From contig ONKG01000017.1 of the NCBI GenBank assembly GCA_900318375.1, forward strand, positions 1-41,075: a stretch of DNA of 41,075 nt, read 5' to 3'. The DNA is from an uncultured Lachnospiraceae bacterium (GTDB taxonomy: Bacteria > Bacillota > Clostridia > Lachnospirales > Lachnospiraceae). Under the pieces are notes generated by a model. That model was not told the origin of the DNA and did no database searches. It was given only the letters and a program-made list of their open reading frames with translations. Position 1 is the stretch's first letter. Each line of letters starts with the position of its first letter. Both the position numbers and the translations under genes were made by a program. This document shows positions 25,178 to 41,075 of the stretch, piece after piece.

Positions 25178-25206
25178 GATTAGGGGCCAGAAAAAGCCTG
25201 AAATAA

Positions 25207-25264
25207 AGGGGTTTCCGTCACCTGGAGCAGATCGTGCTCGGCGTGATGGAACCCCTCTTTTATG
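25207..25264 (+). terminator. Terminator of rlmD
   Basis: AGGGGTTTCCGTCAC (25207-25221) pairs with GTGATGGAACCCCT (25243-25256). An inner GAGCA/TGCTC stem and a CTTTTA tail complete it. It is the last backbone-type feature before the iteron-like repeats. Confidence 0.8.
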
Positions 25265-25299
25265 TCTGCGGGAACTTGTCAAAAATCAGGGTCGTGGCT

Positions 25300-25406
25300 A
25301 CGATTTTACTATTTTTGAAAACGAGACTATGAGATTACTATTTTGCGGAAAACGAGTCAACGATTTTACTATTTTGGGTAGGTCGAGACTATGAGTTTAC
25401 TGATAG
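25300..25406 (+). repeat. Four iteron-like direct repeats
   Basis: Units start at 25300 (ACGATTTTACTATTTT), 25329 (ATGAGATTACTATTTT), 25360 (ACGATTTTACTATTTT) and 25391 (ATGAGTTTACTGATAG). Units 1 and 3 are identical; units 2 and 4 share a GAGACT prefix. Spacing is 29, 31 and 31 bp, close to three helical turns, so bound proteins would sit on one face. They lie between rlmD and the first element gene and may be arm-type integrase/excisionase or replication-initiator sites. Confidence 0.75.
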
Positions 25407-25417
25407 ACAGAAAGAAA

Positions 25418-25455
25418 GCGGCACCGGAGTGATCAGTTCCGATGCCGCCTTTTTT
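25418..25455. terminator. Terminator hairpin next to the sigma-like gene
   Basis: GCGGCACCGGA (25418-25428) pairs with TCCGATGCCGC (25438-25448), with one G-U pair, followed by CTTTTTT on the plus strand and TTTCTTT on the minus strand. It lies four bases beyond the stop of the minus-strand sigma-like gene. Confidence 0.75.
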
Positions 25456-25458
25456 GTC

Positions 25459-26103
25459 TTAACCGTTAATCTTGCGATATTCCTGGCCGATAGCCTTGGC
25501 TTTGGCGATCAGCTGGTAAACGCGAGGCTGGGAGATTTGCAGCTCTGCGGCGATTTCCCTGACGGAATAACCCTGCAGTTCCTTCATCTCAAACGCTCTC
25601 GCAATTCGAGTGTCCTCTGCATCCATCATAGCTTTGATGCCTTCGTACTCCATTTTAGCTCCGACCTGCTCATCCACAGGAGCGTTACCTACCGGTTCGT
25701 ACCCGGTTTCGGCAAGGCCATCCCAGCTGATGATCGGAGCTTGCTTCTTGTCTTTGTAGGGGCAGGTTGCGCAGGAAACGGTGTCTGGGCACTTGATGAA
25801 TGCCTTTCTTTTGCCGGGGATCATGCATCTGACGCTGGCATAGCCACGAGAGTGCTGCGTGTCCAGATAGCGCCACTGGTACTCAGCAAAAGCACGGTTT
25901 TCTGTTTTGAAGAAGAAGACCGTCACCTTGTCGCTGCCGTGGAAGTTGAGCGTCCGGCAATCGCTCCAGGTGATGCCGTAATTGTTGAGGTCTGCCTGAT
26001 CCTTGATTTCGATCGGTGCATCGAACAGGATTTCTCCGTTCGGCCCGATGCTGGTGTTGTGCTTGAATTCGGCCTCAAGCTGAGCTTTCTCAAATCTTGC
26101 CAT
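25459..26103 (-). CDS. Phage/ICE-type protein with sigma-70 region 4-like HTH
   Basis: The 214-aa protein begins MARFEKAQLEAEFK after a GGAGG site. The N-terminal ~130 residues are of unknown fold and carry a cysteine cluster, KCPDTVSCATCPYKDKK, that could bind zinc. The C-terminal 50 residues form a sigma-region-4/RNA-polymerase-type helix-turn-helix (LQGYSVREIAAELQISQPRVYQLIAKAKAIG). Similar proteins occur in clostridial prophages and integrative elements as probable regulators. The RBS is buried in a hairpin (26109-26142), hinting at translational control. Confidence 0.75.
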   Translation of the reverse strand: MARFEKAQLEAEFKHNTSIGPNGEILFDAPIEIKDQADLNNYGITWSDCRTLNFHGSDKVTVFFFKTENRAFAEYQWRYLDTQHSRGYASVRCMIPGKRKAFIKCPDTVSCATCPYKDKKQAPIISWDGLAETGYEPVGNAPVDEQVGAKMEYEGIKAMMDAEDTRIARAFEMKELQGYSVREIAAELQISQPRVYQLIAKAKAIGQEYRKING

Positions 26104-26108
26104 TTAGA

Positions 26109-26142
26109 TTGTCCTCCGTTCGGCTTTGCGAAACGGAGACAA
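26109..26142 (-). promoter_or_regulatory. Hairpin masking the RBS of the sigma-like gene
   Basis: In the minus-strand RNA, the segment containing CGAACGGAGGACAA (26122-26109) can pair almost fully with TTGTCTCCGTTTCG (26142-26129) around a 6-nt loop. The GGAGG is inside the stem. Further dyads follow upstream (26171-26211 and 26210-26228), so the leader is heavily structured. The stretch 26143-26380 otherwise holds no gene I can support. Confidence 0.55.
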
Positions 26143-26380
26143 CCTGTATGGCACGCCAGTCTTTTCATTCGGTCACCTCGTGGGGAATGTCCCCGTTTCT
26201 CGAAGGTGACCAGCAGTTCGCTTGCTGGCTCCAGTCCTATGTTCAACGCCTTCACTGTGACTGCGAAACATTCCTCGTGGCCTTTGAGGAAAGCCTCAGA
26301 TCCGGCAGATGGTTTTTCGTCATATCCAGGACGGTGATTATTAGCAACAGCTCTGTAATACAGCGTTCATAATCTGTTTC

Positions 26381-26409
26381 TTGAATCCTGAGTCGGAACG
26401 ATGTATAAT
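26381..26409 (+). promoter_or_regulatory. Promoter of the defence operon
   Basis: TTGAAT (26381-26386) and TATAAT (26404-26409) are separated by exactly 17 nt. The leader to the NACHT gene is about 210 nt and includes the GGACA repeat array at 26545-26592, which could bind a regulator. Confidence 0.7.
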
Positions 26410-26544
26410 GAGTGGGAATAAGCCGTGTTTGAGCTGATTAAGGCCAAATTCGGAATCCTCTTGCTCACCACCTCTCTGGGCCATGTCTGCTTCAAATCAC
26501 TCTTTCAGTATAGGAAAACTGGTCCAAGTTTTCGGTGACCGCAA

Positions 26545-26592
26545 ATAGGACAATCGCGGACAAACATAGGACATTCACGGACAATACGGACA
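26545..26592 (+). repeat. GGACATTCACGGACA-type repeat array
   Basis: Two 21-nt units, 26545-26565 (ATAGGACAATCGCGGACAAA and one more base) and 26566-26586 (ATAGGACATTCACGGACAAT and one more base), then CGGACA. It resembles the array at 16958-17018. Located between the defence-operon promoter and its first gene. Confidence 0.75.
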
Positions 26593-26626
26593 AAGAAAAA
26601 ACTCCCGTTCTGAGAGGAGATAGAAA

Positions 26627-28981
26627 TTGAGATACTGCGATTTTTGTGCCCCGTTTTATGCACGAGAGCATGGGCTCTGCGGATTAAAGGGGCTGACATC
26701 CCAGAAGAAAATAGGTGAATTCTTTATTAGGGCTGCGCTCGGGGCAAAGGCTGATGAATTCTTGGTGCACTCAGAAGACACTTATCGGAAGTGGTTTACG
26801 GGTGACAGAAACATTGCACCAGAGCTCTGGTCAGAGATATCAGATTCATTTGATGAAATAGGCTTCACCAAGGCTCTTGCGGCAAAAATAAACGACAAGG
26901 CACTCCCCCGCATATTTTCTGCGTACGGGATTACCCTGCCGAAAGGCACTGAGCCTGATAAATATGTGTTTGTCACTGCGCTGACTGAGCAGTTTAAATT
27001 GATCTATTCTGGCAGCGGAGATGGTGATGAGATCCTTGCCTCGGCGTATCATGGTGCCGCTGTACCAGAAGAATTCCCGGAGTATGTAGAGAAATCCTAT
27101 GATAAATTCTCAAAACTAAAGACGCTCCTCTACTCGAATGAGGAACGTCCCTTTGATGAATTCTTCGTATGTAATACGATCCGTACCGAGGAATACTATT
27201 TCCGGAAGAGAATGACCTCCTCCGATAAGGTGATTGAGAATGTCACTTTAGAGAAGATTCTGGAGAAGGCCCGGTATTGTCTGCTCGTTGGAATGGGTGG
27301 CATCGGAAAATCCATGATGATGCGACACCTTTTCTTAGAGTCGATTAAGCAGTATAAAACCACAGGGCTGCTCCCAGTGATGGTAATTCTCCGTGAGTAT
27401 GGCGTTGAGACTGATGACCCTTTTGATCTAATCGTGCGGTCCATCAAACGATTTGATTCGTCCGTTGATAAGAACCTTGTGAACAAGCTGCTCCTTCAGG
27501 GGAAATGCCAGCTGCTCCTCGATGGCCTTGACGAGATTAAGGCCACAGACATGAAGACGTTCCTCTCTCAGCTTGATTATTTTACGGACCAATACCCCAA
27601 TAATCAGATTGTCATTTCAACGCGCCGGTTTTCATCTTTTGTGGGTTTGTCCAGATACAGGATTCTCTGGATGGAGCGCTTCTCCCATGAGCAGGCTCTC
27701 GAACTGGTTGACAAGCTGAAATATCATGAAGAAGAAACCAGACTGAAGGAACGATTCAAGCAGCGGCTGAAGAATGATTTGTTTAAGTCTCATGCTGAGT
27801 TTGCCACAAACCCGCTGCTCCTCACCTTGATGTACATGAACTTCAGGATCTTTACTGACGTTCCGGAGAAGCAGCATAAGTTCTATAAACAGGCTTATGA
27901 AACGCTGCTCCAAAAGCATGATGGCGATAAACTAACACTTACGAGAGCATTCCGAAGTGTGAAAGACACGTCTGACTTTACGGACGTGTTTGCTGAGTTC
28001 TGCGCCAGGTCTTATCGTAAGGGCGATTATGAGTTCGACGACGATAAGTTCAAGTATTATTTTGGGATACTTCACAGTAAAGAAAAACTGGATTCCTCAT
28101 TGATGAAGGTGGACAACTTTAAGTTTGATGCTCTTCACAGCTCATGCCTTATGTACGAGGAAGCCCAGAGAATTCATTTCCTTCATCGGTCATTCCAGGA
28201 ATACTTCTTTGCAGAGTATTATTCCCGACAGGATGATACAACCATGATCAAGCTGGGACTTTCTCTACGGAAGCCCATGCAGACCAGATATGACGAGAGT
28301 GAAGCCTTCAACATGTTGTATGAGCTGGCTTCAGATAAAGTTGAGCGCTTTATTTTCCTCCCACTTCTTGAAGAAATCTATTCCGAGCCGGATAAAGAAA
28401 AGTCATATTGGACTTTTCTGAAGTATGGGTATGCTGAAATTGGGTATACGATTTTTGATAGAAGCATTATCGAAAAGTATTACAAAGGCTTCAGTATTGA
28501 TGGTCGAGGCGACCTGATAAATACACCATCCACTGTTATACTGACCAAGATGCTGCGCATCCTTGGGATTCAGTCAGAGTTCATAAAGGACTATAATGGT
28601 GAGCCCGTCAATTATCCGGAGTTTCAAATCAGCGCTTATCTTGCGCAGGAAATACCGAAGAGAAAGAAAGATGAGAAGCGTAGGCTTTCTGTATTGGCGA
28701 TGCCGATAGAGTTTCTTAGGGATAGGGCAAGGTTCGAAAAGAGTGCACCGTTTGATTTCTCTGATAAAGATGAAAACGGAAACCCGCTGGAAATAGGACA
28801 CGATTTCTCTGTAGATGTTTCTCGAATTATAGAAGAACCGGAGAAATATGCTCGTATTAAGGTCCTGCTGGAGGATGAAAAAACTGAATTAAAGCAAACG
28901 TACCATCGTTTGGAACAGTATTATCTGGAACTGAAAGAAAAGTATAAAGACAGCGATAATTTGGATGACGATGATTTCTGA
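26627..28981 (+). CDS. NACHT-family STAND NTPase (bacterial NLR-like defence protein)
   Basis: The 784-aa protein appears to start at TTG 26627, placed after GAGGAGA. The N-terminal ~190 residues are an unassigned effector or sensor region. It opens with a possible metal site (CDFC near residue 4, another Cys near 18) and contains a DTYRKWFTGDRNIAPELW segment. The NACHT core follows: Walker A LVGMGGIGKSMMMRHL (about 219-234), Walker B QLLLDGLDEI (about 293-302), sensor ISTRRF and a winged-helix/helical part with HFLHRSFQEYFFAEYY, a hallmark of NACHT modules. The C-terminal ~250 residues are helical and charged. Bacterial NACHT proteins sense phage and trigger abortive responses. It heads a seven-gene operon with restriction enzymes. 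Confidence 0.88.
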   Translation: MRYCDFCAPFYAREHGLCGLKGLTSQKKIGEFFIRAALGAKADEFLVHSEDTYRKWFTGDRNIAPELWSEISDSFDEIGFTKALAAKINDKALPRIFSAYGITLPKGTEPDKYVFVTALTEQFKLIYSGSGDGDEILASAYHGAAVPEEFPEYVEKSYDKFSKLKTLLYSNEERPFDEFFVCNTIRTEEYYFRKRMTSSDKVIENVTLEKILEKARYCLLVGMGGIGKSMMMRHLFLESIKQYKTTGLLPVMVILREYGVETDDPFDLIVRSIKRFDSSVDKNLVNKLLLQGKCQLLLDGLDEIKATDMKTFLSQLDYFTDQYPNNQIVISTRRFSSFVGLSRYRILWMERFSHEQALELVDKLKYHEEETRLKERFKQRLKNDLFKSHAEFATNPLLLTLMYMNFRIFTDVPEKQHKFYKQAYETLLQKHDGDKLTLTRAFRSVKDTSDFTDVFAEFCARSYRKGDYEFDDDKFKYYFGILHSKEKLDSSLMKVDNFKFDALHSSCLMYEEAQRIHFLHRSFQEYFFAEYYSRQDDTTMIKLGLSLRKPMQTRYDESEAFNMLYELASDKVERFIFLPLLEEIYSEPDKEKSYWTFLKYGYAEIGYTIFDRSIIEKYYKGFSIDGRGDLINTPSTVILTKMLRILGIQSEFIKDYNGEPVNYPEFQISAYLAQEIPKRKKDEKRRLSVLAMPIEFLRDRARFEKSAPFDFSDKDENGNPLEIGHDFSVDVSRIIEEPEKYARIKVLLEDEKTELKQTYHRLEQYYLELKEKYKDSDNLDDDDF

Positions 28982-29010
28982 TACATGATGAAACCTGGAG
29001 GAGGAAGAAC

Positions 29011-29202
29011 ATGGCTGAAACCGAAAGACTTTATAGCGTAGAAGAAATTGCTAACCATATTGGTGTGAGCAAAGATACGATCCGTGCGTGGGTCAAGAAG
29101 GAGACTATCCCTTTCTATAAGGTTGGAAGACAATACAAATTCAAACTATCTGAAATTGACGAGTGGGTCGCAAGCGGCAAAAGCGCCGATGCAGATAAGT
29201 AA
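29011..29202 (+). CDS. HTH_17/excisionase-family DNA-binding protein
   Basis: The 63-aa MerR-like winged helix reads LYSVEEIANHIGVSKDTIRAWVKKETIPFYKVGRQYKFKLSEIDEW. It covers the entire excisionase-type (helix_turn_helix_17) domain. It has GGAGGAGG before its ATG, 29 nt after the NACHT stop and 17 nt before hsdM. Small HTH proteins of this type often precede hsdM in Firmicutes. It may act as a controller of restriction timing or as an element directionality factor; the operon position favours the former. Confidence 0.88.
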   Translation: MAETERLYSVEEIANHIGVSKDTIRAWVKKETIPFYKVGRQYKFKLSEIDEWVASGKSADADK

Positions 29203-29219
29203 CAAACGGAGGGAAGGAC

Positions 29220-30794
29220 ATGGCGGATAATAAAAAAGAACAAGAGCGGGAGGAACTCCACCGCGCAATATGGGCTATCGCCGATGAACTCCGGGGCGCT
29301 GTCGATGGATGGGACTTTAAGAATTATGTTCTCGGAACAATGTTCTATCGGTATATCTCTGAAAACCTGACAAATTACATTAACCGTGGCGAACAGGCTG
29401 CTGGAAACCTTGATTTTGACTATGCCCGCATGTCAGATGCGGATGCTGAAGAAGCCAGAGAAGGTCTTGTCGAAGAGAAAGGCTTTTTCATTTTGCCGAG
29501 TGAGCTTTTTTGCAATGTTAGGGCACGTGCAAGTTTGGATCCGAACCTAAATGAAACGTTAGAACACGTTTTTCATCATATTGAAGAGTCTGCAAAGGGC
29601 AGCGTTTCAGAGAACAGTTTCTCCGGATTGTTTGATGATTTTGATGTCAACAGCAACAAGCTCGGGAGCACTGTGGCCAAAAGAAATGAACGTTTAGCGA
29701 AGCTACTGGATGGCATCGCTCTTATGAGGCTTGGGTCTGTCGATGAGCATGATATCGATGCTTTTGGCGATGCCTACGAATACCTGATGACGATGTACGC
29801 ATCCAATGCAGGAAAATCTGGTGGCGAGTTCTTCACGCCAGCGGATGTCTCAGAACTATTGACACGTCTTGGTACTGTCGGAAAGAAGAGAGTTAACAAG
29901 GTATATGATCCAGCCTGCGGCTCCGGCTCCCTTCTTTTGAAAGCCCTGAAGGTGCTCGGTAAGGATGCTGTGGTGACTGGATTCTTTGGACAGGAAATCA
30001 ACATTACGACATATAACCTTTGTCGTATCAATATGTTTCTCCATGATGTTGGATTTGATAAGTTTGATGTTGCCTGTGAGGATACTCTGATCAATCCTCA
30101 GCACTGGGACGACGAACCGTTTGAACTAATCGTCTCAAATCCCCCCTATTCAATCAAATGGGCTGGTGATGACAATCCTCTGCTCATCAATGATCCTCGT
30201 TTTGCTCCAGCGGGTGTTTTAGCTCCTAAGAGCAAAGCAGACCTGGCATTCATCATGCATGCACTGTCATGGTTGGCACCCAATGGTACTGCTGCGATTG
30301 TCTGCTTCCCTGGTATCATGTACAGGGGCGGAGCGGAACAGAAAATCAGGAAGTACCTAATAGATAATAACTTCATAGACTGTGTGATCCAGCTGCCGAG
30401 CAACCTGTTCTTTGGCACATCTATCGCTACATGCATTATGGTTATGAAGCGTGGCAAAGCAGATAACAAGGTACTGTTTATTGATGCCACGAATCAATGC
30501 ATAAAGGTGACAAACAACAATAAACTCTTGCCAGAGCATATCGATACTATTGTAGACGCTTTCGCGAAACGAGAAGACATCGAGTACCTATGCAGATTGG
30601 TGGATTACGATGAAGTAAAAAAACAGAACTATAACCTGTCTGTTTCCACCTATGTGGAGCAAGAGGATACCCGAGAAAAGATAGACATTGTCAAGCTCAA
30701 TGCAGAGATAAAAGAGATAGTGGCTCGTGAGCAGATCCTCCGGGATGAGATTGATAAGATCATCTCTGAGATCGAAGGAGGGGAGAACGCATGA
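29220..30794 (+). CDS. hsdM: Type I restriction-modification DNA methyltransferase subunit
   Basis: The 524-aa adenine-N6 methyltransferase has an N-terminal HsdM helical domain (AIWAIADELRGAVDGWDFKNYVLGTMFYRYIS), SAM motif I DPACGSGSLLLKAL (about residue 229) and catalytic NPPYS (about 307-311). It also has SGGEFFTPADVSELL before motif I. It methylates the host recognition sequence and forms the M2S1 core. The C-terminal helix is for HsdS contact. Its stop overlaps the hsdS start by four bases (ATGA), which implies translational coupling. Confidence 0.95.
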   Translation: MADNKKEQEREELHRAIWAIADELRGAVDGWDFKNYVLGTMFYRYISENLTNYINRGEQAAGNLDFDYARMSDADAEEAREGLVEEKGFFILPSELFCNVRARASLDPNLNETLEHVFHHIEESAKGSVSENSFSGLFDDFDVNSNKLGSTVAKRNERLAKLLDGIALMRLGSVDEHDIDAFGDAYEYLMTMYASNAGKSGGEFFTPADVSELLTRLGTVGKKRVNKVYDPACGSGSLLLKALKVLGKDAVVTGFFGQEINITTYNLCRINMFLHDVGFDKFDVACEDTLINPQHWDDEPFELIVSNPPYSIKWAGDDNPLLINDPRFAPAGVLAPKSKADLAFIMHALSWLAPNGTAAIVCFPGIMYRGGAEQKIRKYLIDNNFIDCVIQLPSNLFFGTSIATCIMVMKRGKADNKVLFIDATNQCIKVTNNNKLLPEHIDTIVDAFAKREDIEYLCRLVDYDEVKKQNYNLSVSTYVEQEDTREKIDIVKLNAEIKEIVAREQILRDEIDKIISEIEGGENA

Positions 30795-32020
30795 GTAAAT
30801 TGGACGATCTGATTAGAAAGCTGAGCCCGGACGGGGTGGAGGTTGTACCTCTCTGGTCAGTAACTATCTGGGATAAAAAATTTAATGGTGTTGCACGAGA
30901 AATGCAGCCATCCATTAATCCTCATAAATATTATCTTGCGACTGATTTTAATGAGATTGAGGACGAAAACGGAGATATTCCTTATATCCCTACTGGAATT
31001 ATTGATAAGAAAAGATACACAACTGAAGTAAAAGCAGGGGATTATTTAAGAGAGGGAGAAATTGTTTGTATCCCCTGGGGTGGCACCCCTAATGTTAAAT
31101 ATCATAAAGGCAAATACGTAACAGGAGACAACAGGATTTGCACATCGAATGATACAACAAAACTGGATAACAAGTTTTTATACTATCTACTATCTAATCG
31201 AGTTGATGAGATCACGAGTTATTATAGAGGTGCTGGTATACAGCACCCGAGCATGCAGTCGGTTCTAAGCATGAGAATTCCTGTACCTCATATCGAGGTA
31301 CAGCGTGAAATTGTCCGAATATTGGACAATTTCACGGAGCTTACAGCGGAGCTTACAGCGGAGCTTACAGCAAGAATAAAACAATTAGGCTTCTACCGTG
31401 ATCAATTACTATTACAGGACGGAGAAGATTTTTACTTAGAGAATATTTGTAAGATAGTAGATTGCCCACATACCTCTCCCAAATGGAGAGACTCCGGGAT
31501 TCCTGTAATAAGAAATTTTAACCTTGTCAACGGACAAATTGATACTTCAAAGCTGTTTTATGTTGACGAAGAGGAGTATCAGGCACGGGTGAAAAGAATT
31601 ATTCCTCAAGAAGATGACATTTTGTTTTCCAGAGAAGCTCCTATTGGAAACGTTGGTATAGTTCCTAAGAACTTCACATGCTGCCAAGGACAACGCGTTG
31701 TTTTGCTCAGACCAATCACCGATATTGTTTATCCTCGATTCTTATTGCATGCCTTACAAGGAGGTCTTGTACGCAGTCAAATTGAAAAAGTGGAGAGTAT
31801 TGGAACCACTGTCAGTAACTTTAATATTGCAGATCTCAGAAAACTAATAATTAAAGTACCTGCAATGGAAATCCAAATTAGGATATCGGAAAAGATGGAT
31901 AAGATTGCTTCCTACAGTGTTGATATGAATAATGGTTTGCCAGCGGAGATACATGCGAGACAGAAACAATTCGAGTATTACCGAAATGTACTTCTCAGTT
32001 TTAAGGAAAGGACGGCGTAG
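30791..32020 (+). CDS. hsdS: Type I restriction-modification specificity subunit
   Basis: The 409-aa protein has two target-recognition domains separated by a central conserved helix. The first TRD ends with MRIPVPHIEVQREIVRILDNF, the second with LRKLIIKVPAMEIQIRISEKMD. The spacer contains three ELTA units (residues 183-194) before RIKQLGFYRDQLL, as in type IC systems (EcoR124/EcoDXXI TAEL repeats). There the copy number sets the distance between the two half-sites. The recognition sequence cannot be predicted by eye. Confidence 0.95.
   Translation: MSKLDDLIRKLSPDGVEVVPLWSVTIWDKKFNGVAREMQPSINPHKYYLATDFNEIEDENGDIPYIPTGIIDKKRYTTEVKAGDYLREGEIVCIPWGGTPNVKYHKGKYVTGDNRICTSNDTTKLDNKFLYYLLSNRVDEITSYYRGAGIQHPSMQSVLSMRIPVPHIEVQREIVRILDNFTELTAELTAELTARIKQLGFYRDQLLLQDGEDFYLENICKIVDCPHTSPKWRDSGIPVIRNFNLVNGQIDTSKLFYVDEEEYQARVKRIIPQEDDILFSREAPIGNVGIVPKNFTCCQGQRVVLLRPITDIVYPRFLLHALQGGLVRSQIEKVESIGTTVSNFNIADLRKLIIKVPAMEIQIRISEKMDKIASYSVDMNNGLPAEIHARQKQFEYYRNVLLSFKERTA
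31337..31372 (+). repeat. 12-bp tandem repeat (3 copies) in hsdS spacer
   Basis: GAGCTTACAGCG, GAGCTTACAGCG, GAGCTTACAGCA: three in-frame copies encoding ELTA. Slippage would alter the half-site spacing without breaking the frame. Confidence 0.95.
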
Positions 32021-32023
32021 TAG

Positions 32024-32503
32024 ATGGTTATTAAAGAAAATACAAATATGCTTCTTTTCCGTTTCCGCGATTTTGGAAAGTACAATTTCATAGACACCCA
32101 CCGAGAGTTTATTGAAAAAAATGGCTATGTGTGGCTTTTGAAGATTGGCAAAAAAACAAGCTGTGAGAAGATTTCTGAGATTCAGCGAGAGGGCGGCTGG
32201 ATGATATTGCGCTCACCTAAAGCAGATGGTGGTAAGTCATACATTGTCAAATATGTAGACTACTCAGAGAAGACACCGAAAGATGGAATGTTCCCGAAAT
32301 ATTATGAAGAAGTCATTAATAGTGAGGACTTCTGGGAAGCAACCTGTCAATGGTTTATGATTGATAGAATTAGCTCTTTAAGCGATGAGTCTGCTAAAAC
32401 CTTGGTGATGGCAAAAACAGAAAAACCAATAGATGAGGTTATTGGTGCAACGCGCACAGCTGTTATGTTTGTGAAAAATGTTGCTCCCATAACATTGGAT
32501 TAA
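32024..32503 (+). CDS. Unknown 159-aa protein within the type I R-M operon
   Basis: Three nucleotides separate it from hsdS and twelve from hsdR, so it is embedded in the operon. I do not recognise the family. Seen features: a short N-terminal LLFRFRDFGKYNFIDTHREFI; alternating beta-like segments (GYVWLLKIGKK, GWMILRSPKADGGKSYIVKYVDY); a Trp-containing FWEATCQWFMIDRISSL; and a hydrophobic C-terminus ATRTAVMFVKNVAPITLD. The size and the WLLKIG...MILRSP...YIVKYV pattern could suit a small PUA/EVE- or ASCH-like nucleic-acid-binding fold, which would fit a restriction context, but this is a guess. It has no signal peptide and no TM helix. Confidence 0.8.
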   Translation: MVIKENTNMLLFRFRDFGKYNFIDTHREFIEKNGYVWLLKIGKKTSCEKISEIQREGGWMILRSPKADGGKSYIVKYVDYSEKTPKDGMFPKYYEEVINSEDFWEATCQWFMIDRISSLSDESAKTLVMAKTEKPIDEVIGATRTAVMFVKNVAPITLD

Positions 32504-32515
32504 GGAGGGCGCAGC

Positions 32516-35500
32516 ATGCCGTATTTCAACATAGTCGCAGAGACAAATCAAAACACAGTTGTGACGGAATACGAGCCTGTCAAGGCCCGTTCCGACAGCT
32601 ATCAATCCGAAGCTGCGCTAGAGAAAGAGTTCATACGTCTGCTTGGTGAACAGGGGTATACTTATCTTCCCATTCATTCAGAAGCGGAGCTTATTGCAAA
32701 TCTCCGCGAACGACTGGAAGAATTGAACAAGTATAAGTTTTCAGATACAGAATGGGAGCGTTTCTTTAAAGACAGCATTGCTAATCCAAACGATCACATT
32801 GTGGAGAAGACCCGGAAAATTCAGGAAGACAATATTCAGGTCTTAAAGCGTGATAATAACATGTCAAAGAATATCACGCTCATAGATCGTAAGAACATTC
32901 ATAATAATCGTCTTCAGGTCATTAATCAGTATGTGATCGGTAAGGCCGAAGGTGCCACCTATGACAATCGTTATGATGTGACAATCCTCGTAAACGGACT
33001 TCCACTGATTCATATTGAGCTCAAGCGTCGTGGGGTTGCAATCCGTGAGGCGTTCAATCAGATTGAGCGCTATCAGCGCGATTCCTTCTGGGCAGGCAGT
33101 GGTCTGTTTGAGTACGTGCAGATCTTCGTCATCTCCAACGGGACCAATACCAAGTATTACTCTAACAGTACAAGAAGTAATGCCATCAACGAGGCTAAGA
33201 ACAGAGGCCCGAAGAAAGGAAAGACCAGCAATAGTTTTGAGTTTACTTCGTTCTGGGCTGATGCTAATAACCGTGTGATCCCGGATTTGATCGATTTTAC
33301 GAAGACTTTCTTTGCAAAACATACGCTGCTGAATATCCTGACCAGATACTGCGTTTTTACCTCTGAGAACATGCTTATGGTAATGCGTCCGTATCAGATT
33401 ACAGCAACGGAGCGAATCCTGAACCGGATTGAGATTGCCCATAACTATAAAAAGTACGGTAATATTGCCGCAGGTGGGTATATCTGGCACACGACCGGTT
33501 CCGGCAAAACCCTGACCTCTTTCAAAACCGCTCGACTGGCTACGCAGCTTTCCTTCATCGATAAGGTGCTTTTTGTTGTTGACCGTAAAGATCTGGACTA
33601 CCAGACCATGAAAGAATATGACCGTTTTGAAAAAGGCGCTGCCAACAGCAATACGTCTACTGCTGTGCTTGAGCGACAGCTCCGTGATCCAAAAGCACAT
33701 ATCATAATTACGACTATCCAGAAGCTCTCTACTTTCATTAAGAAGAATAAGGAGCACGAAATTTATAATCGACAGATCGTCATCATTTTCGACGAGTGCC
33801 ACCGGAGCCAGTTTGGCGATATGCATGATGCTATTGTAAGGAGCTTCAAGAAGTACTATATGTTTGGATTTACTGGAACGCCAATCTTCCCTGCAAATGC
33901 AGGAGCGCGTACCAACCCGAAGTATTTCACAACAGAACAGACCTTCGGAGATCAGCTTCACACCTACACAATAGTCGATGCAATCAATGATAAAAACGTA
34001 CTTCCGTTCCGGGTGGATTATATAAAAACGATGGATACCGATGCAGACATTGACGACGAACAGGTCTGGGATATCGATCGCAAGAAAGCATTTGAAGCAT
34101 CGGAGCGTATTACCCTTGTCGCAAACTATATTCTTGACCATTTCGACCAGAAGACTTATCGGGGTGATAAAACCTACGTCTTTAATGCTCTGACGAACAT
34201 TGCTGATGTTGCTTCAGCCGATCGTGGTAAGGTAGAAGAAATTAAGCAGAAACAACGCCTGAGCGGATTTAACTCGATCTTTGCTGTGGCATCAGTTCCG
34301 ATGGCTAAGCTGTATTATGATGAATTCCGTAAGATTATCAAAAACGATCCCACGAAGAACCTAAAGATCGCTGTCATCTACAGTTATGCTGCAAACGAGG
34401 AGGAGATTGATGGAATTCTGGACGAGGAAAACTCAGAAGATACCTCTGCCCTCGACCAGAACTCCCGTGATTTTCTGGAGTCTGCAATCAAAGATTATAA
34501 CGAGATGTTCCATACGAACTACGATACATCCAGTGATAAGTTCCAAAACTACTATAAAGATGTATCCCTTCGTATGAAGAACAAGGAACTGGATCTACTC
34601 ATTGTTGTGAATATGTTCCTGACTGGCTTTGACGCCACTACACTCAATACGTTGTGGGTGGATAAAAATTTGAAAATGCATGGCTTGATACAGGCGTTTA
34701 GTCGTACCAACCGCATTCTGAACAGTATCAAGACATTCGGCAACATAGTCTGTTTCCGCAACCTGCAAAAGAGAGTTGATGCTGCTATCTCCCTGTTCGG
34801 TGATAAGAACGCTGGTGGTATCGTTCTTATGCAGAGCTTTAAGGATTATTACTATGGCTATGATTCTGTCGACGGCGAGCCTCAACCGGGATATGTGGAT
34901 TTGATCGAAGATCTGACCACGAACTTCCCTCTCTCAGAACCGCAGATCATTGGAGAGCAGAATCAAAGAGATTTTATTGCTCTATTTGGCGCTATCCTAA
35001 AAATGCGGAATCTGCTGGTTTCATTCGATGAATTTGCCGGGAAGGAGATCATCTCCGAAAGGGATCTACAGGATTATCTTGGTCGATATCAGGATCTAAG
35101 AGATGAATGGAAGCGTAGACGCGAGAGCGGAGAAAGCACGGATATTATTGATGATATTGTTTTTGAGATAGAACTCATTAAGCAGATCGAGATCAATATC
35201 GACTATATCCTTATGCTGGTGAAGAAGTATCATGATACACATTGCGAGGACAAGGAAGTACTCATCACTATCCGCAAAGCTATTGATGCCAGCCCTGAAC
35301 TCCGTAGCAAGAAACAATTGATTGAGGCTTTCATCTCCGGAATCAACGATGTTGATGATGTGATGAATGAGTGGAATGAATACGTGGCCCAACAGCGTGA
35401 GACTGATCTGAAACAGATCATTCAGGAAGAGAATCTTAAGCCAGAGGAAACCAGGCGCTTCCTTGAAAACGCATTCCGTGAGGGCGAAGTAAAAACAGTC

Positions 35501-35764
35501 GGAACAGATATTGATAAACTGATGCCTCCGGTAAGTCGCTTTGGTGGTGGCAACCGCGCCCAAAAGAAGCAATCGATCATTGAGAAGTTAAAAACCTTTT
35601 TCGAGAAGTATTTCGGAATCGGAAATCGATCCTTTACATCTGATCCTGAAGAACAGGAAGAGGATGACAAGAAAGTTACATATTACGATTTCTCTGCTCC
35701 TCCTATCGGAATGGTCGCTGAGGAACCGGCGCAATATGGCTCAAAGAAAAACGACGGAGAATAA
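32516..35764 (+). CDS. hsdR: Type I restriction endonuclease/translocase subunit
   Basis: The 1082-aa protein has an N-terminal PD-(D/E)xK nuclease (YDVTILVNGLPLIHIELKRRG, with ELK at 168-170), then SF2 translocase motifs. These include Q/Walker A GGYIWHTTGSGKTLTSF (about residue 325), DECHRS (about 426), FGFTGTP, and motif VI QAFSRTNRI. The C-terminal helical region binds the methyltransferase core. Length is standard for HsdR. RBS GGAGGGCGC before the ATG is strong. The complex translocates DNA and cuts when it meets unmodified sites. Confidence 0.96.
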   Translation: MPYFNIVAETNQNTVVTEYEPVKARSDSYQSEAALEKEFIRLLGEQGYTYLPIHSEAELIANLRERLEELNKYKFSDTEWERFFKDSIANPNDHIVEKTRKIQEDNIQVLKRDNNMSKNITLIDRKNIHNNRLQVINQYVIGKAEGATYDNRYDVTILVNGLPLIHIELKRRGVAIREAFNQIERYQRDSFWAGSGLFEYVQIFVISNGTNTKYYSNSTRSNAINEAKNRGPKKGKTSNSFEFTSFWADANNRVIPDLIDFTKTFFAKHTLLNILTRYCVFTSENMLMVMRPYQITATERILNRIEIAHNYKKYGNIAAGGYIWHTTGSGKTLTSFKTARLATQLSFIDKVLFVVDRKDLDYQTMKEYDRFEKGAANSNTSTAVLERQLRDPKAHIIITTIQKLSTFIKKNKEHEIYNRQIVIIFDECHRSQFGDMHDAIVRSFKKYYMFGFTGTPIFPANAGARTNPKYFTTEQTFGDQLHTYTIVDAINDKNVLPFRVDYIKTMDTDADIDDEQVWDIDRKKAFEASERITLVANYILDHFDQKTYRGDKTYVFNALTNIADVASADRGKVEEIKQKQRLSGFNSIFAVASVPMAKLYYDEFRKIIKNDPTKNLKIAVIYSYAANEEEIDGILDEENSEDTSALDQNSRDFLESAIKDYNEMFHTNYDTSSDKFQNYYKDVSLRMKNKELDLLIVVNMFLTGFDATTLNTLWVDKNLKMHGLIQAFSRTNRILNSIKTFGNIVCFRNLQKRVDAAISLFGDKNAGGIVLMQSFKDYYYGYDSVDGEPQPGYVDLIEDLTTNFPLSEPQIIGEQNQRDFIALFGAILKMRNLLVSFDEFAGKEIISERDLQDYLGRYQDLRDEWKRRRESGESTDIIDDIVFEIELIKQIEINIDYILMLVKKYHDTHCEDKEVLITIRKAIDASPELRSKKQLIEAFISGINDVDDVMNEWNEYVAQQRETDLKQIIQEENLKPEETRRFLENAFREGEVKTVGTDIDKLMPPVSRFGGGNRAQKKQSIIEKLKTFFEKYFGIGNRSFTSDPEEQEEDDKKVTYYDFSAPPIGMVAEEPAQYGSKKNDGE

Positions 35765-35776
35765 TGAGGTGGCAGC

Positions 35777-38122
35777 GTGAACAAGATTGATAAAACCGAT
35801 ACACTTACGAAAATCCTGTCGCACAGGCGCTTCACCGTCGATGTATTTCAGCGTGAGTATCGTTGGGGTCGGAAGCAGATTGAACAGATGATATCTGATT
35901 TCCAGGATACTTTCGAGGAATTTTACGATCCTGATAACCATGATACGCCTCTGGAGGTTATGAACTATGGCTACTATTACATGGGCTGTATCATCTGTAC
36001 GGGAGGCTCTCCGAATAAAATCATCGATGGCCAGCAGCGACTCACATCACTGACGCTTTTGCTGATTTATCTGAATAACCTGCAGAAGGAACAGGCAGCA
36101 CAGGGGTTTCGCAGTGTTCAGTTCGATGACATGATCTATGATGATCATTTCGGAACCAAGAGCTTCAACATTGATGTGGATGACCGACAGCTTTGCCTGC
36201 ATGCATTGATCGGCAATGATATGTCCTATCAGCCGGACAATGAGAGCGCACAGAACATGATGGATCGGTATAAGGATATTGCGGACCTCTTCCCTGATGA
36301 GCTTAAGGGTGAGGCACTGGAGTATTTCATTTACTGGCTGAAGGAAAAAGTCCTGCTTCTTGAGATCGATACGCCATCCGAGGATGAAGCCCATACGATC
36401 TTCCTGACGATGAACGATCGGGGACTGAGCCTTAACAGCGCTGAGATGATGAAGGCATACATCATGCAGCAGATCGTTGAGATGGACCGGTATGCTGTTA
36501 ACCACAGATGGCAGGATAACATCAACCGGATCAAGAGCGCTTCCTCATACGATACCAGCGGTGTTGTAAATACGGAGGATGTAGAATTTATCTCGACATG
36601 GCTCCGCGCCAATTACGCGGCCACGCTCCGTGAAGGTAAGCGAGGTGCCAGTGATGAGGACTTTGAACTTCTGGGTGAAAAGTTCCATACTTGGGTGCGT
36701 AGCAACGCAAAGGCCAAGATGGGCTTGAACAAGTCCAGTGATTATAAAACGCTCGTCATGACAGAGATGTCCAAGGTGACGGACCTGTATCTGAAACTCA
36801 AAGAATACAGTAGCACCCTGACAGCTGGTTATGAGGAAGTATTCTACAACGCCAACCGGGATCTGAATTACCAAAATATGCTCATCATCTCTGCTGTGCG
36901 CAGCGACGATTCTGATGAGGATGTAAAACGGAAGATTCAGATGGTGTCGAAGTTCGTCGATATTTTTGCCTCCATCCGTATCTTCAATTTCCGGAAGGTC
37001 AACTGGAATACAAACAAGTATCTGTTATTCCGCGTCATGAAAGACATCCGGAATCAGGACTGCAAATCGGTCGGTATGATACTGGTTAGAGCGCTGCGTC
37101 GTATGGACGCCAGTATCGATGCCATCACGAAGTTCAGCCTGAATCAGTTCTCTGGTAGGTACATGCTACACCTGCTTGCCCGTTTCACTTCCTACGTGAA
37201 TGTCAGAATGGGAAATCCGTCTCAGTTTGATGTCTATGTGGATCGTAAGCGGAAGGGAAATACCTACGATATTGAACATATCCTGCCGGATGATTATGAC
37301 AGCTACAGTGATGAGTTCCCGGATGCTGAAGACTTCCAAACCAGCAGACAGATGATCGGTAACCTGATCATCCTGACCCGGGATAAAAACCGCAGCTATC
37401 AGGCAATGAAATATCAGGAGAAGGTAGGCAAATATGTCGGGGACAATGTTCTGGCGCAGGCTTTGAACAGCACGGCATACGCCAGCAATCCGCAGTTCTT
37501 GGCTGTTGCCAAGGAGTATGGATTTGCACCTATTCCGAAATTCACAAAAGACAGTATCGCAGACCGTGCTAAGATATATCTGCAGATGGCAGCAGATATA
37601 TGGGACCCGGATGCCATCAAAGATATCGCAGGCGGCTGGGAAGAAGAAACTGAGAAGGAGTTTTTCAAGAGCGAGAAGGCGCGTGAATTCACCGTGGAAT
37701 ACTACGAGAAGAGCTGGCCTGATGCACTGAAGTATGGCTTCCTTTCTGCGAACATCGGCGGCACAGGCAAGTTCCTGAAGAACATTCAGGTCGGAGATAT
37801 CGTATACTGCCACATCGCCGGTGCCGGATTCGTCGGAATTGGAGAATGCACAGCAGCGGCAGTACCCATGAAACAGTTTATGGTAACTGTCGATGACACT
37901 GAGGTACCGATCACAGACGTCACCTGGATTGAGGCGGCCTACAAGGCAAAGCTGGATGTCGATAAAGAGATCTTCATCCGGGTAGATTGGAAGAGCTATG
38001 TTCAGGATCAGAAGGATGGTTATTGGGAGAAAGGCATGACCTCCGTACCGATGGTCGCCTATCAACTTTCCGATCAGAGCACACATAAGAAGGTCCGGGA
38101 GCATTTCGGATACAAGAATTAA
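35777..38122 (+). CDS. GmrSD/BrxU-like type IV restriction protein (DUF262-DUF1524) with C-terminal PUA/EVE-like domain
   Basis: The 781-aa protein starts with GTG 35777 after GAGGTGG. The N-terminal DUF262/GmrS nucleotide-hydrolase region has FTVDVFQREYRWGRKQIEQM and IIDGQQRLTSLTLLLIYLN (about 82-100). The middle HNH-type DUF1524/GmrD nuclease has YDIEHILPDDYDSY (EHILP near 500) and RQMIGNLIILTRDKNRSYQ. After about residue 635 comes an extra domain: SWPDALKYGFLSAN, NIQVGDIVYCHIAGAGFVGIGECTA and IFIRVDWKSY. This resembles PUA/EVE-like modified-base readers. GmrSD proteins cut glucosylated hydroxymethylcytosine DNA. The fusion suggests one protein combining modified-base recognition, NTPase and nuclease activity. 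Confidence 0.85.
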   Translation: MNKIDKTDTLTKILSHRRFTVDVFQREYRWGRKQIEQMISDFQDTFEEFYDPDNHDTPLEVMNYGYYYMGCIICTGGSPNKIIDGQQRLTSLTLLLIYLNNLQKEQAAQGFRSVQFDDMIYDDHFGTKSFNIDVDDRQLCLHALIGNDMSYQPDNESAQNMMDRYKDIADLFPDELKGEALEYFIYWLKEKVLLLEIDTPSEDEAHTIFLTMNDRGLSLNSAEMMKAYIMQQIVEMDRYAVNHRWQDNINRIKSASSYDTSGVVNTEDVEFISTWLRANYAATLREGKRGASDEDFELLGEKFHTWVRSNAKAKMGLNKSSDYKTLVMTEMSKVTDLYLKLKEYSSTLTAGYEEVFYNANRDLNYQNMLIISAVRSDDSDEDVKRKIQMVSKFVDIFASIRIFNFRKVNWNTNKYLLFRVMKDIRNQDCKSVGMILVRALRRMDASIDAITKFSLNQFSGRYMLHLLARFTSYVNVRMGNPSQFDVYVDRKRKGNTYDIEHILPDDYDSYSDEFPDAEDFQTSRQMIGNLIILTRDKNRSYQAMKYQEKVGKYVGDNVLAQALNSTAYASNPQFLAVAKEYGFAPIPKFTKDSIADRAKIYLQMAADIWDPDAIKDIAGGWEEETEKEFFKSEKAREFTVEYYEKSWPDALKYGFLSANIGGTGKFLKNIQVGDIVYCHIAGAGFVGIGECTAAAVPMKQFMVTVDDTEVPITDVTWIEAAYKAKLDVDKEIFIRVDWKSYVQDQKDGYWEKGMTSVPMVAYQLSDQSTHKKVREHFGYKN

Positions 38123-38128
38123 GGCGAA

Positions 38129-38171
38129 GGGCAGCACTTACCACCAAGGTAGGCGCTGCCCGTTTTTTATT
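38129..38171. terminator. Bidirectional terminator between defence operon and polymerase gene
   Basis: GGGCAGC (38129-38135) pairs with GCTGCCC (38155-38161), with an inner ACTTACC/GGTAGGC stem, and is followed by GTTTTTTATT on the plus strand. It ends the seven-gene plus-strand operon and also lies at the 3' end of the minus-strand polymerase gene. Confidence 0.85.
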
Positions 38172-40155
38172 GCTTCTGATAAAATCTGCACTCATATCCA
38201 TCGGCCCTGAGCTCGATGCCGGGTATCCACGGCGGGGTCCTCCCCATCTGCTCACAGATCGCATCCAGCGATACCTCCGGGCTGCATTCGATGATGAGCT
38301 CGTCGTGGACGTGCCCGACGATCTGGCTGTAGCTTAAGGTCCGCATGGCATGGGCCAGGATGTCCCGGCTGACCGCCTGCACAATGTTCTCGACAAACTT
38401 CGGACCGTAAGATTCGATCCGGCTCCATTTCTTCTGGGCATCGATTCCCATGTAAGTGACGGACTCACCTCCGAAACGGTTCTCGCCGATCCGGGGCTTC
38501 ACGTAGGCCAGCCTGCGTCCGGAGGGCAGGGTGATAAACAGCATCCCGTTTTTCATCAGAAAGATGATGTCACCAACCTGAGTCTGGGTCCGCATTTGAA
38601 TCGCATCCTTCACAGCGGCATCTACCGCCCACCAGTACTGCGTGATATGCGGGTTGCTGCTGCGCCACATATCTACCAGCGGCTGTAGCTCATCTTCGGT
38701 CAGGCCCATGTCGAGAGCGCCCATAGCTTTGAGGGCACCGACGCTGCCGCCATAGCCGAGGGCCAGCTCAGCGATTTTGCCTTTTTGCCGGAGGTGGCTG
38801 TTCTGGCCATGCTTCTCGACTGGCACACCAAACATCCTGCTGGCACTTTCGCAGTAGATGTCACGGCCCTTGTGAAAGACCTCTGCCCGCCAGGTTTCAC
38901 CGGCAAGGTGGCTCAAAACTCGCGCCTCGATGGCACTGAAGTCACTGACCACAAATTTGTATCCGGGCCTCGGAATGAAGGCGGTCCTGATCAATTCCGA
39001 CAACACACCGGGGACGGAGTCGTACAGCATATCCAACATTTCATAGTCACCGGCCTTCACCAGATCACGAGCCTGCTCCAGATCATCCATGTGATTTTGC
39101 GGCAGGTTTTGCAACTGAATCAGGCGTCCGGCCCATCGGCCACTTCGGTTGGCACCGTAAAACTGAAACATGCCGTGGCAGCGGCCATCGGCGCAGACTG
39201 CGTTTTGCATGGCCTGATACTTACGGACGGAGCTCTTAGCCAGCTGCAGCCGGAGCGAAAGCACCTCGGCCAGATCCTCCGGCGCGGTTTTGATCATGGC
39301 TGCGACATCCTTCTTCCCGAGGCTTTCCACCTCCATGCCGTTCTCTGCCAGATAATCTTTCATCTGTATGACCGAGTTGGGATTGTCCAGCCCGGTCTTT
39401 TTCTGCATCCGGACGGTCAGGTCTGTCTTGGAAAGCTCATCGATCCGCAATGCCTCCCGGACCATGTCCTGATCGATCATGATGCCGCGATCGTTGATCT
39501 GCTGGTCCAGGTGGTATTCATCCCAAACGAAATCCGGCACCGGATAATTCTTCAGACGTTCCTGGATCTGCATCTCCACCTGCACATCGCGCTCATTGTA
39601 TTTTTTGAACAGTTCCCATTTCTCAGGTGCATGCTGCGGCAGGTTCCAGGTCCGGCCACCGTTGCTTTTCGTGGGCTTGCAGGGGCAGCAGAAATACTTG
39701 ATCAGGTCTTTACCTTCCTTCAATTTCTGCTCCTCAAAGCCAAGGACCGCACCGACCTTTTCCAGTCCCAGGGGCAGGCCGTTGTAGGCAGCCCATACCA
39801 GTGTGCACTTCCATGATGCCGGATCGAGATAGTTCTGGACCGGATCGCCGGGGATGCTGTAGGAGCGGAAGTGCTGCGGGTAATTCCTGCGCAGCCAGAC
39901 CGACAGACAGACCCGCTCGAAGCTGGCATTGTAGGCCCACTTCGTCACCCGGTCATCGGAGAGTGCAGCAATGATCTCTTCCGGAACACTATCCCCGCAG
40001 GCGAGATCGTACACGGTGATGGGGCCGTGGTTGATGGACACACCGAACAGCAAAATGGCAAAGTCCGGTGACTCGGCATATTTGTAGGCACCGGATTTTC
40101 CGATGTCGACACTTGATTTCGTCTCAAGGTCTAAAGACAGATTTTTAATTTCCAT
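38167..40155 (-). CDS. Phage-type family A DNA polymerase
   Basis: The 662-aa protein, starting at ATG 40155 after AAAGGAA (the longer frame to 40293 lacks an RBS), has an N-terminal 3'-5' exonuclease-like region. Its ExoI DxE motif is visible in LSLDLETKSS. The polymerase domain has motif A VVSDFSAIEARVLSHLAGE (catalytic D near 403), the finger region KGKIAELALGYGGSVGALKA and motif C VHDELIIE (H/D/E near 618). It is similar in size to polymerases in clostridial prophage replication modules. It is encoded opposite to the adjacent defence operon. Confidence 0.93.
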   Translation of the reverse strand: MEIKNLSLDLETKSSVDIGKSGAYKYAESPDFAILLFGVSINHGPITVYDLACGDSVPEEIIAALSDDRVTKWAYNASFERVCLSVWLRRNYPQHFRSYSIPGDPVQNYLDPASWKCTLVWAAYNGLPLGLEKVGAVLGFEEQKLKEGKDLIKYFCCPCKPTKSNGGRTWNLPQHAPEKWELFKKYNERDVQVEMQIQERLKNYPVPDFVWDEYHLDQQINDRGIMIDQDMVREALRIDELSKTDLTVRMQKKTGLDNPNSVIQMKDYLAENGMEVESLGKKDVAAMIKTAPEDLAEVLSLRLQLAKSSVRKYQAMQNAVCADGRCHGMFQFYGANRSGRWAGRLIQLQNLPQNHMDDLEQARDLVKAGDYEMLDMLYDSVPGVLSELIRTAFIPRPGYKFVVSDFSAIEARVLSHLAGETWRAEVFHKGRDIYCESASRMFGVPVEKHGQNSHLRQKGKIAELALGYGGSVGALKAMGALDMGLTEDELQPLVDMWRSSNPHITQYWWAVDAAVKDAIQMRTQTQVGDIIFLMKNGMLFITLPSGRRLAYVKPRIGENRFGGESVTYMGIDAQKKWSRIESYGPKFVENIVQAVSRDILAHAMRTLSYSQIVGHVHDELIIECSPEVSLDAICEQMGRTPPWIPGIELRADGYECRFYQKQ

Positions 40156-40173
40156 TGGAATTCCTTTCACAAA

Positions 40174-40198
40174 GCGGCAGGGTTTGGAGCCCTGCCGC
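40174..40198 (-). other. Intergenic hairpin in the phage-like operon
   Basis: GCGGCAGGG/CCCTGCCGC, a perfect 9-bp stem with a 7-nt loop, lies between the 66-aa gene and the polymerase RBS. A similar hairpin (40628-40654) lies after the DUF2815-like gene. No T-run follows, so mRNA processing or stabilisation is more likely than termination. Confidence 0.7.
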
Positions 40199-40207
40199 CA
40201 AGCTATA

Positions 40208-40408
40208 TTATTCGGTTGTTTCAGTGCTGGATTCCTCCAGCGCTTTTGCTTTGCGCTCCTTGCGCTCGGCCAGTTTCTTCTTGATACTATCAAAGGCGAT
40301 GCTCACCAGCTCAGCTACCATATAGCCGAGACCGGCACCGCACATGCTACAGAAGCTGATCACGATAATCAGATCCGCCAGATGGCTCAGCGTCATTGTC
40401 GTTTCCAT
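40208..40408 (-). CDS. Small membrane protein (66 aa)
   Basis: The protein has one hydrophobic segment (LADLIIVISFCSMCGAGLGYMVAELV) followed by a Lys/Arg/Glu-rich tail (KKKLAERKERKAKALEESS). Its start overlaps the end of the upstream 88-aa gene by 62 nt, typical of compact phage operons. The function is unknown. Possible alternative start: the second Met (MTLSHL). Confidence 0.65.
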   Translation of the reverse strand: METTMTLSHLADLIIVISFCSMCGAGLGYMVAELVSIAFDSIKKKLAERKERKAKALEESSTETTE

Positions 40409-40666: not shown

Positions 40667-41074
40667 TCAGGACAGGAAGTCCTCATCGTCATCGTCCAGA
40701 TCGGCGAAGTCGTCCTCAGCACGGCTGTGGTTGATGCTGGCCCTGCCAATGATACCGCTGTACAGCTCGGAGCTGTCCAGGATCGGATTGCGGTCGGCAT
40801 CGACCACCCCCGGTTTCGTGGTGCTGTTGGCGTTCACGAAGTAACTGCCTGCATAGGCTTCGTCGCCCTTGCGCTCCTTGTCGCCATCACGCAGCGGAGT
40901 CTTGATGTCCTCCAGCGCAGGTACGAACTTGCTGCTGCCCTTGAGCTTGGACTGGCCTTCGTCGTAAGCCGCCTGAATCGCAGCGCGGATCTTGGCGATG
41001 GTCACGGTGTCGCTCTTCGGGATAATCAGCGAAACGCTGTACTTCGGGGTGCCGCCACCCAGCGGGGTCTTAGG
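40667..41074 (-). CDS. DUF2815-like phage ssDNA-binding protein, 5' end beyond the window
   Basis: The reading frame is open to the window edge: PKTPLGGGTPKYSVSLIIPK precedes SDTVTIAKIRAAIQAAYDEG, so the Met at 41005 is internal. The sequence VPALEDIKTPLRDGD, YFVNANSTTKPGVVDADRNPIL and the acidic end EDDFADLDDDDEDFLS match my memory of DUF2815 proteins, encoded beside DNA polymerase A in clostridial phages and thought to bind single-stranded DNA. Between GRASIN and HSRAEDD about 35 residues usually present (an aromatic/Asn-Gly-rich stretch) seem to be missing, an in-frame deletion. The acidic tail is typical of SSB-like proteins. Confidence 0.75.
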   Translation of the reverse strand, partial: PKTPLGGGTPKYSVSLIIPKSDTVTIAKIRAAIQAAYDEGQSKLKGSSKFVPALEDIKTPLRDGDKERKGDEAYAGSYFVNANSTTKPGVVDADRNPILDSSELYSGIIGRASINHSRAEDDFADLDDDDEDFLS

Positions 41075-41075
41075 C

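Follow-up and report, generated by a model that had tools for sequence, protein, structure and literature searches.

A recurrent NACHT and helix-turn-helix gene pair that stands before type I restriction-modification and other DNA-modification systems and may control or watch over them

Several described systems share features with the locus considered here, a seven-gene block in a 41,075-nucleotide stretch of DNA (the window, meaning this whole stretch) from an uncultured Lachnospiraceae bacterium (GenBank assembly GCA_900318375.1, contig ONKG01000017.1, positions 1 to 41,075), in which a NACHT gene and a small helix-turn-helix (HTH) gene precede a type I restriction-modification (R-M) set. 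The papers cited were available in part, and statements about them concern the available text. Bacterial NACHT proteins of clade 14 carry SNaCT domains and have no discernible effector, and some of them give phage defence in E. coli (PMC12169576). PrrC, encoded in a type I operon, kills if the enzyme is resisted by a phage (PMC3874165). GmrSD/RloF genes adjoining type I R-M are known (PMC4619093), as are EVE or ASCH genes near type I loci and rare EVE–GmrSD fusions (PMC7641849). Moreover, GmrSD and other nucleases occur beside bacteriophage exclusion (BREX) systems, in a paper whose available main text does not contain the word NACHT (PMC12839542).

The window NACHT protein resembles the clade 14 members bNACHT02, 11 and 12 in combining NACHT and SNaCT with no recognised effector domain (PMC12169576); the likeness is one of domain content, and the Pfam SNaCT family number need not equal the clade number. 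In contrast to those proteins, which were cloned singly (PMC12169576), the NACHT here comes with an HTH and stands before R-M, BREX or type III-like systems. EcoprrI–PrrC offers a precedent for a guarded restriction enzyme and, as here, adds a gene to type I R-M (PMC3874165); PrrC, however, is an anticodon nuclease encoded inside the operon, whereas the gene here stands at the head and encodes an ATPase resembling nucleotide-binding leucine-rich-repeat (NLR) proteins. The RptR–HsdMS–DarTG–HsdR–M48 island is likewise composed of a small regulator as first gene, type I R-M and cargo between hsdS and hsdR in seven open reading frames (ORFs). However, its cargo is DarTG, its available description has no NACHT, and the likeness of the regulators is one of position (PMC12255303). 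CapK/CapS are also common front-end regulators upstream of diverse immune operons; in contrast, they are a kinase and a repressor that answer DNA damage, and the available text mentions no NACHT (PMC13373217). No locus with NACHT and R-M or BREX appeared among the papers listed by a literature search that left subscription literature largely outside. Each part is already known, and a NACHT–HTH front end common to several kinds of DNA-modification system was not recognised in print in this search.

The seven genes of the window span 26627-38122, with intergenic gaps of 29, 17, -4, 3, 12 and 12 nt:

26627..28981, + strand: NACHT–SNaCT14 protein with a TTG start (Pfam NACHT and SNaCT14); N-domain at about residues 1-145, NACHT at 216-363, SNaCT14 at 565-779
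29011..29202, + strand: 63-residue HTH_17/excisionase-type protein (Pfam HTH_17)
29220..30794, + strand: HsdM (Pfam N6_Mtase and HsdM_N; TIGR00497, 712 bits)
30791..32020, + strand: HsdS (Pfam Methylase_S in two stretches)
32024..32503, + strand: PUA-like small protein, optional accessory (PF24405, E 7e-5, under the Pfam cut-off)
32516..35764, + strand: HsdR with an EcoR124-type C-terminus (Pfam HSDR_N, SWI2_SNF2 and EcoR124_C)
35777..38122, + strand: GmrSD_N and GmrSD_C protein with a 161-residue C-terminal region, optional accessory (Pfam)

These coordinates and Pfam families bear out the gene list, order and gaps of a preliminary description of the locus, as well as its complete type I R-M set, matched as HsdM, HsdS with two recognition domains, and HsdR. 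The first protein matches the NACHT NTPase family PF05729 at 31 bits (cut-off 26.7), with Walker A and B motifs (GMGGIGKS, LLLDGLDE), and its C-terminus matches PF22720 (SNaCT family 14) at 62.1 bits (cut-off 27), while its N-domain has no significant match in PDB or Pfam. The motifs NPPY, DECH, DGQQR and IEHILP are also present in the window proteins. The last gene had been described as a GmrSD–EVE-like fusion. Its GmrSD_N (98.0 bits, cut-off 33.2) and GmrSD_C (44.3 bits, cut-off 23) assignments hold at the sequence level, but the EVE part is not confirmed, the 161-residue C-terminus having no match at E<=1 in Pfam or PDB, unlike the rare EVE–GmrSD fusions (PMC7641849). The only candidate match for this region is PADLOC PDC-S11 (E 8.6e-26). 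As a type IV-like gene linked to hsd genes it follows known cases (PMC4619093, PMC7641849), and a GmrSD gene beside type I R-M is an ordinary feature. Membership of the MADS family of systems was considered and rejected, with the MAD1 HTH at 60.6 of 80 bits and the MAD2 methylase at 49.9 of 720, below the curated cut-offs. No PrrC anticodon nuclease was found for the seven proteins in Pfam, nor among the PADLOC matches listed.

The NACHT–SNaCT gene and the 63-residue HTH gene stand before hsdM in the window and in loci L023/24, L032, L043, L097 (where the NACHT is broken), L157, L158, L159 and L176; in L098 the NACHT directly adjoins hsdM with no HTH between. The pair directly before the same type I R-M family is found in other genera. 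The remaining slots vary. Among the loci compared, L158 (37%) and G379 (a 101-residue ORF) are the only ones with a PUA-like gene in the slot flanked by hsdS and hsdR. The gene after hsdR encodes AAA_5 in L043 with related proteins in L032 and L098, GmrSD_N in L097, DUF4357 in G379, a UvrD-like helicase in L158, and DUF4268 in L176. Distant GmrSD genes (22-32%) follow hsdR in L062, L063, L127 and L142 with no NACHT seen there, although L063 lacks upstream sequence. All seven genes occur together in no other locus examined. The preliminary description suggested that the seven, in fixed order, may be one composite system; read strictly, GmrSD and the PUA-like protein would be obligate partners in it. 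The tight gene spacing of the window is in favour of this reading, which the absence of a second full copy and the varying PUA-like and post-hsdR genes make highly improbable; it was rejected for the loci examined. What survives of the proposed linkage is the recurrence of NACHT–HTH before this type I family, including other genera. On the sequences compared, the PUA-like and GmrSD genes are optional.

Two side observations concern these genes. In another contig of the same genome (L026, 7018-9753), a second and weak PUA-like match (28%) follows a distant HsdM-like match (26%) at a distance of about 1.7 kb. Many contigs of the type I family (L045-L049, L056, L058 and others) break off shortly before hsdR, within or close to hsdS; copies of hsdS that are repeated or that invert could be the cause.

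The pair is not confined to type I loci. In 22 of the 37 viral NACHT loci the HTH lies 39-702 bp past the NACHT match; HTH identity is 55-71%, and the NACHTs themselves are merely 29-48% identical to that of the window. Behind the pair, L164 has type III-like Mod/Res genes together with a helicase (Pfam); in L161, L167 and L189 the contig stops too early to show more than this same helicase. BREX genes of BrxA/BrxB/BrxC type follow in L165, L173, L174 and L179, DUF6079 in L170 and L175, a C5 methylase in L168 and L180 (a HATPase is seen in L180), and a DpnII system in L185. The proteins behind the pair (36 of 44 listed, from 19 loci) include HsdM_N in 5 cases, BrxA in 4, BrxB in 4 and Helicase_C/SNF2 in 4, and more rarely DUF6079 (2), C5 methylase (2) and DpnII (1). 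By eye, L163, L169 and L182 have a different, XRE-like small gene in the HTH position. NACHT–SNaCT and the small HTH, as judged from gene content, are a recurrent pair before DNA-modification systems of six kinds. Annotated phages gave no NACHT match at E<=1e-5, and the 144 plasmid records with distant NACHT matches include none spanning 80% of the query.

A search anchored on the HTH places the pair in a wider setting. Scanned with an HTH profile, viral contigs yielded 91 loci, of which 80 were retained and 73 have distinct HTH DNA. The gene upstream of the HTH was a NACHT in 22 of these 73, an NBR1_IG-type gene in 25, another gene in 10 and none in 12, while 4 were too short. Because HTHs next to NACHTs served to build the profile, the NACHT share is inflated; of the 22 loci with a NACHT, 21 are shared with the NACHT scan. 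The NBR1_IG-type protein (260-290 residues; L233, L241, L250, L253, L256 and L258 are examples) replaces the NACHT and combines a NACHT-type N-domain with an NBR1-like Ig domain; the N-terminal domain is common to it and the window-type NACHT (hhalign probability 98.2%, E 4.5e-14). Behind the non-NACHT HTHs, 55 of 118 listed proteins have matches, with N6_Mtase at 21, C5 methylase at 9, N6_N4_Mtase at 5 and HamA at 4. In a set of 245 cellular genomes from the class, the HTH reaches E<=1e-12 in 18; by eye, at several places it opens a system of type I, BREX, type III-like or C5 kind. Taken together, the cellular and viral scans show the HTH as a frequent leading gene of DNA-modification systems and the NACHT as an optional part, seen here mainly in prophage-like contigs. 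In three annotated phages (L294, L295, L296) two unnamed genes precede the HTH, and one record then has an RloC-annotated gene; the likeness of this arrangement to L228, L229, L230 and L234 is one of layout alone.

A tentatively favoured reading of the window, drawn from gene content and leader sequence, is a prophage defence cargo in which the NACHT–HTH front end, under control of the HTH, would serve as an NLR-type backup of the DNA-modification system. The HTH would probably bind tandem 10-bp repeats near the promoter and set expression of the NACHT and of the system behind it. The NACHT, less certainly, may be an NLR-like second line that is inactive while the partner system works. Its trigger could be a phage that blocks the partner system, or a phage product that escapes that system, after which it would stop the infected cell or the phage. 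Type I enzymes cut unmodified DNA, and GmrSD, perhaps with the PUA-like protein, would by its family add the handling of modified DNA in the window copy. That the NACHT guards modification systems is what we infer. In a wider version, which is doubtful, a family of Clostridia prophages would use one exchangeable NLR front end, composed of a variable N-domain–NACHT–SNaCT protein, an excisionase-type HTH and two repeat arrays, to control and guard numerous DNA-modification systems that are unrelated to each other. Each NACHT lineage would be specialised for the system that it guards, and the N-domain would also bind its own leader.

The relation between NACHT lineages and partner systems was read from a tree of 35 NACHTs with open forks, 22 of whose rows are labelled with 6 system types. 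Type I-linked NACHTs form one branch (11 rows, support 100, together with L155 and L156), with the L155 NACHT as nearest relative of the window's at 48% identity. The BREX, DUF6079 and C5 rows are each confined to one branch, and the type III-like rows lie in one branch save L189, on a long branch beside the DpnII row. Five changes explain the six types, which is the minimum, compared to a minimum of 9 and a mean of 12.2 in 100 shuffles; the 5 is a lower bound because forks are open. Among these sequences the NACHT lineages track the kind of partner system. Across type I loci (8-10 loci each), median pairwise identity is 33% for NACHT and 34% for HsdS in best-hit segments, and 72% for the HTH and 81% for both HsdM and HsdR. 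A NACHT as variable as HsdS beside conserved HTH, HsdM and HsdR is as expected of a predicted sensor. L032 has another N-domain type inside the type I branch. In L161 (9497-12322) and L189 (9035-12372) a short GNQTIINIQNM-like motif opens the NACHT and recurs where the neighbouring protein begins (DUF6650 in the L161 contig); by eye, we take it to resemble the amyloid signalling motifs of NLR–effector pairs.

The surroundings of the block, in a draft host genome (82% complete, 193 contigs), are phage-like:

25459..26103, - strand: phage-type sigma-region-4 protein on the left flank (Pfam Sigma70_r4_2)
38167..40293, - strand: phage family A DNA polymerase on the right flank (ORF as listed; 38167-40155 searched)
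40667..41005, - strand: phage Enc34-type single-stranded-DNA-binding protein (DUF2815), followed by a run of N just beyond the window

The GmrSD gene ends 44 bp from the convergent polymerase (PolA) ORF, whose best matches in named phages (63-70% identity) include Lachnospiraceae, Ruminococcus and Christensenellales phages. Beyond the run of N are DUF2800-, holin- and amidase-like ORFs (by eye), and two adjacent large serine recombinases (Resolvase and Recombinase; L027, 5186-8736) lie near the right end of the element. The sigma-like gene, PolA, DUF2815, these ORFs and the recombinases are the grounds on which the seven-gene block is identified as cargo of a prophage-like element, probably a remnant. 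By eye, an rlmD-like host gene lies on the left side of the element; in the empty-site comparison at rlmD, the G959 contig stops just beyond this gene. Relatives of the sigma-region-4 protein occur near a NACHT in L176 and L098 only, and are distant (26-32%). Two phage records with related HTHs are classified under 'Ca. Heliusvirales'.

Such a setting lends itself to the principal alternative, in which a prophage hotspot gathers defence genes, and NACHT–HTH and R-M are uncoupled neighbours that have a common promoter region and travel together. This alternative is possible, though on the unlikely side. PolA, DUF2815 or DUF2800 are present in 19 of the 22 NACHT HTH loci and 20 of the 25 NBR1-type HTH loci, compared to 11 of the 26 others, and P2/P4 phage hotspots of defence genes are known (PMC9122126). 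L155, whose NACHT has an HTH, and L156, whose NACHT has none, both place the NACHT beside PolA without R-M, which speaks for the hotspot and against the backup reading. On the contrary, the lineage–system match at the minimum number of changes, the constant order of NACHT, HTH and system, and an HTH conserved next to a fast-changing NACHT are not what uncoupled neighbours would suggest.

The leader of the seven-gene block and its end contain the following signals:

26381..26409, + strand: promoter-like TTGAAT-17-TATAAT, 217 nt before the NACHT start (scan score 10 of 12)
26414..26422, + strand: GGGAATAAG, possible single half-site of the HTH operator array A (by eye)
26548..26592, + strand: array B, five GGACA repeats at spacings of 10, 11, 10 and 9 nt, upstream of the ribosome-binding site
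38148..38160, + strand: terminator-like hairpin with a 5-bp stem and T run (terminator scan)

The promoter-like site is one of three matches scoring 10 of 12 in a scan of 24000-41075. The 19 promoter-like sites there do not exceed shuffles (22.7 +- 5.0), so that the single promoter of the preliminary description is not demonstrated. Its final terminator is properly placed as a terminator-like site (22 sites in the scan vs 13.8 +- 4.6 in shuffles), but its absence of internal terminators is not demonstrated, because the scan also gives + strand matches within genes at 28692, 30196 and 33067. The two scans together thus fall short of proof of the single transcription unit that the description had proposed. 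Prophage context, the wider spread of the NACHT–HTH pair and the leader repeats did not figure in that description.

Across 32 NACHT leaders, the strongest tandem similarity is at lag 10 (z 9.1), with lags 9, 18 and 20-21 also raised; a coding control is raised at lag 9 too and flat at lag 10. Twenty NBR1-type leaders give z 6.2 at lag 10, 5.1 at lag 12 and 7.4 at lag 21, and 17 HTH leaders without a NACHT or NBR1-type gene give z 4.4 at lag 10. Array A, defined as two units of TATGAWTWRN, is found at <=3 mismatches in 17 of 31 NACHT, 8 of 17 NACHT-less (7 of these 8 in the opposite direction) and 1 of 20 NBR1-type leaders, and at <=2 mismatches in 12, 6 and 0, respectively. At the latter threshold its density is 1.31 per kb in leaders vs 0.025 elsewhere for NACHT loci, and 1.26 vs 0.007 for NACHT-less loci. 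The NACHT-less set is a partly independent test, because the motif was noticed in NACHT leaders and finalised after the NACHT-less repeat analysis. Since it stands before NACHT-less HTHs too, array A is probably the operator of the HTH.

In many leaders array B is found, by eye, 35-71 nt ahead of the start codon, and its repeat word varies. GGACA arrays of at least two repeats occur in 8 of 11 window-type (type-1 N-domain) leaders, 0 of 27 type-2/3 and 1 of 22 NBR1-type leaders; GGACA as a general NACHT operator was rejected on this distribution. As a guess, array B belongs to the NACHT N-domain. These repeats raise a further alternative, that the NACHT is chiefly a transcription regulator of the STAND (signal transduction ATPase with numerous domains) type, which controls the R-M operon together with the HTH and whose N-domain binds the start-proximal repeats. 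The GGACA distribution fits it, as do the start-proximal repeats of other words seen by eye in other leaders and the same N-domain without NACHT in same-slot NBR1_IG proteins, some of them with start-proximal repeats. However, the GGACA word was picked by eye in the window and related loci, and some of the leaders are close kin (L043 and L195/L157). For the N-domain no HTH match reaches significance (HTH_3 in 1 of 14 members, E 0.072), and bNACHT proteins are able to defend alone in E. coli (PMC12169576). A chiefly regulatory NACHT is an improbable reading.

Further points weigh against the backup reading, besides the loci without R-M, the stray L189 row and the open forks of the tree. The lineage–system match fits functional matching and plain co-inheritance alike, and the correlation of NACHT identity with HsdM identity is weak (rho 0.30, p 0.08). 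No effector domain was identified in the NACHT protein, and the window leader has no match to the two-unit array A at <=3 mismatches. By eye, the NACHTs of L162, L191, L030 and L033-L037, in addition to L155 and L156, have no neighbouring DNA-modification system (L028 ends too early to judge). The NACHT is found in 3 of 55 HsdR-anchored loci that have enough upstream sequence and were not entered via the NACHT search, one of them broken. In cellular genomes other than the window's own, a NACHT or NBR1-type gene stands at 0 of 18 HTH places (17 genomes; 14 of the 18 with at least 2.5 kb upstream).

We know of no described trigger for most bacterial NACHT proteins. A NACHT lineage tied to DNA-modification systems gives a concrete trigger hypothesis, namely inhibition or failure of the partner system. 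If true, this would account for the way in which prophages regulate costly restriction systems and provide them with a backup, and it would tie NLR-type immunity to restriction. The comparison suggests a common, unnamed add-on before DNA-modification defence systems, which may control or watch over them.

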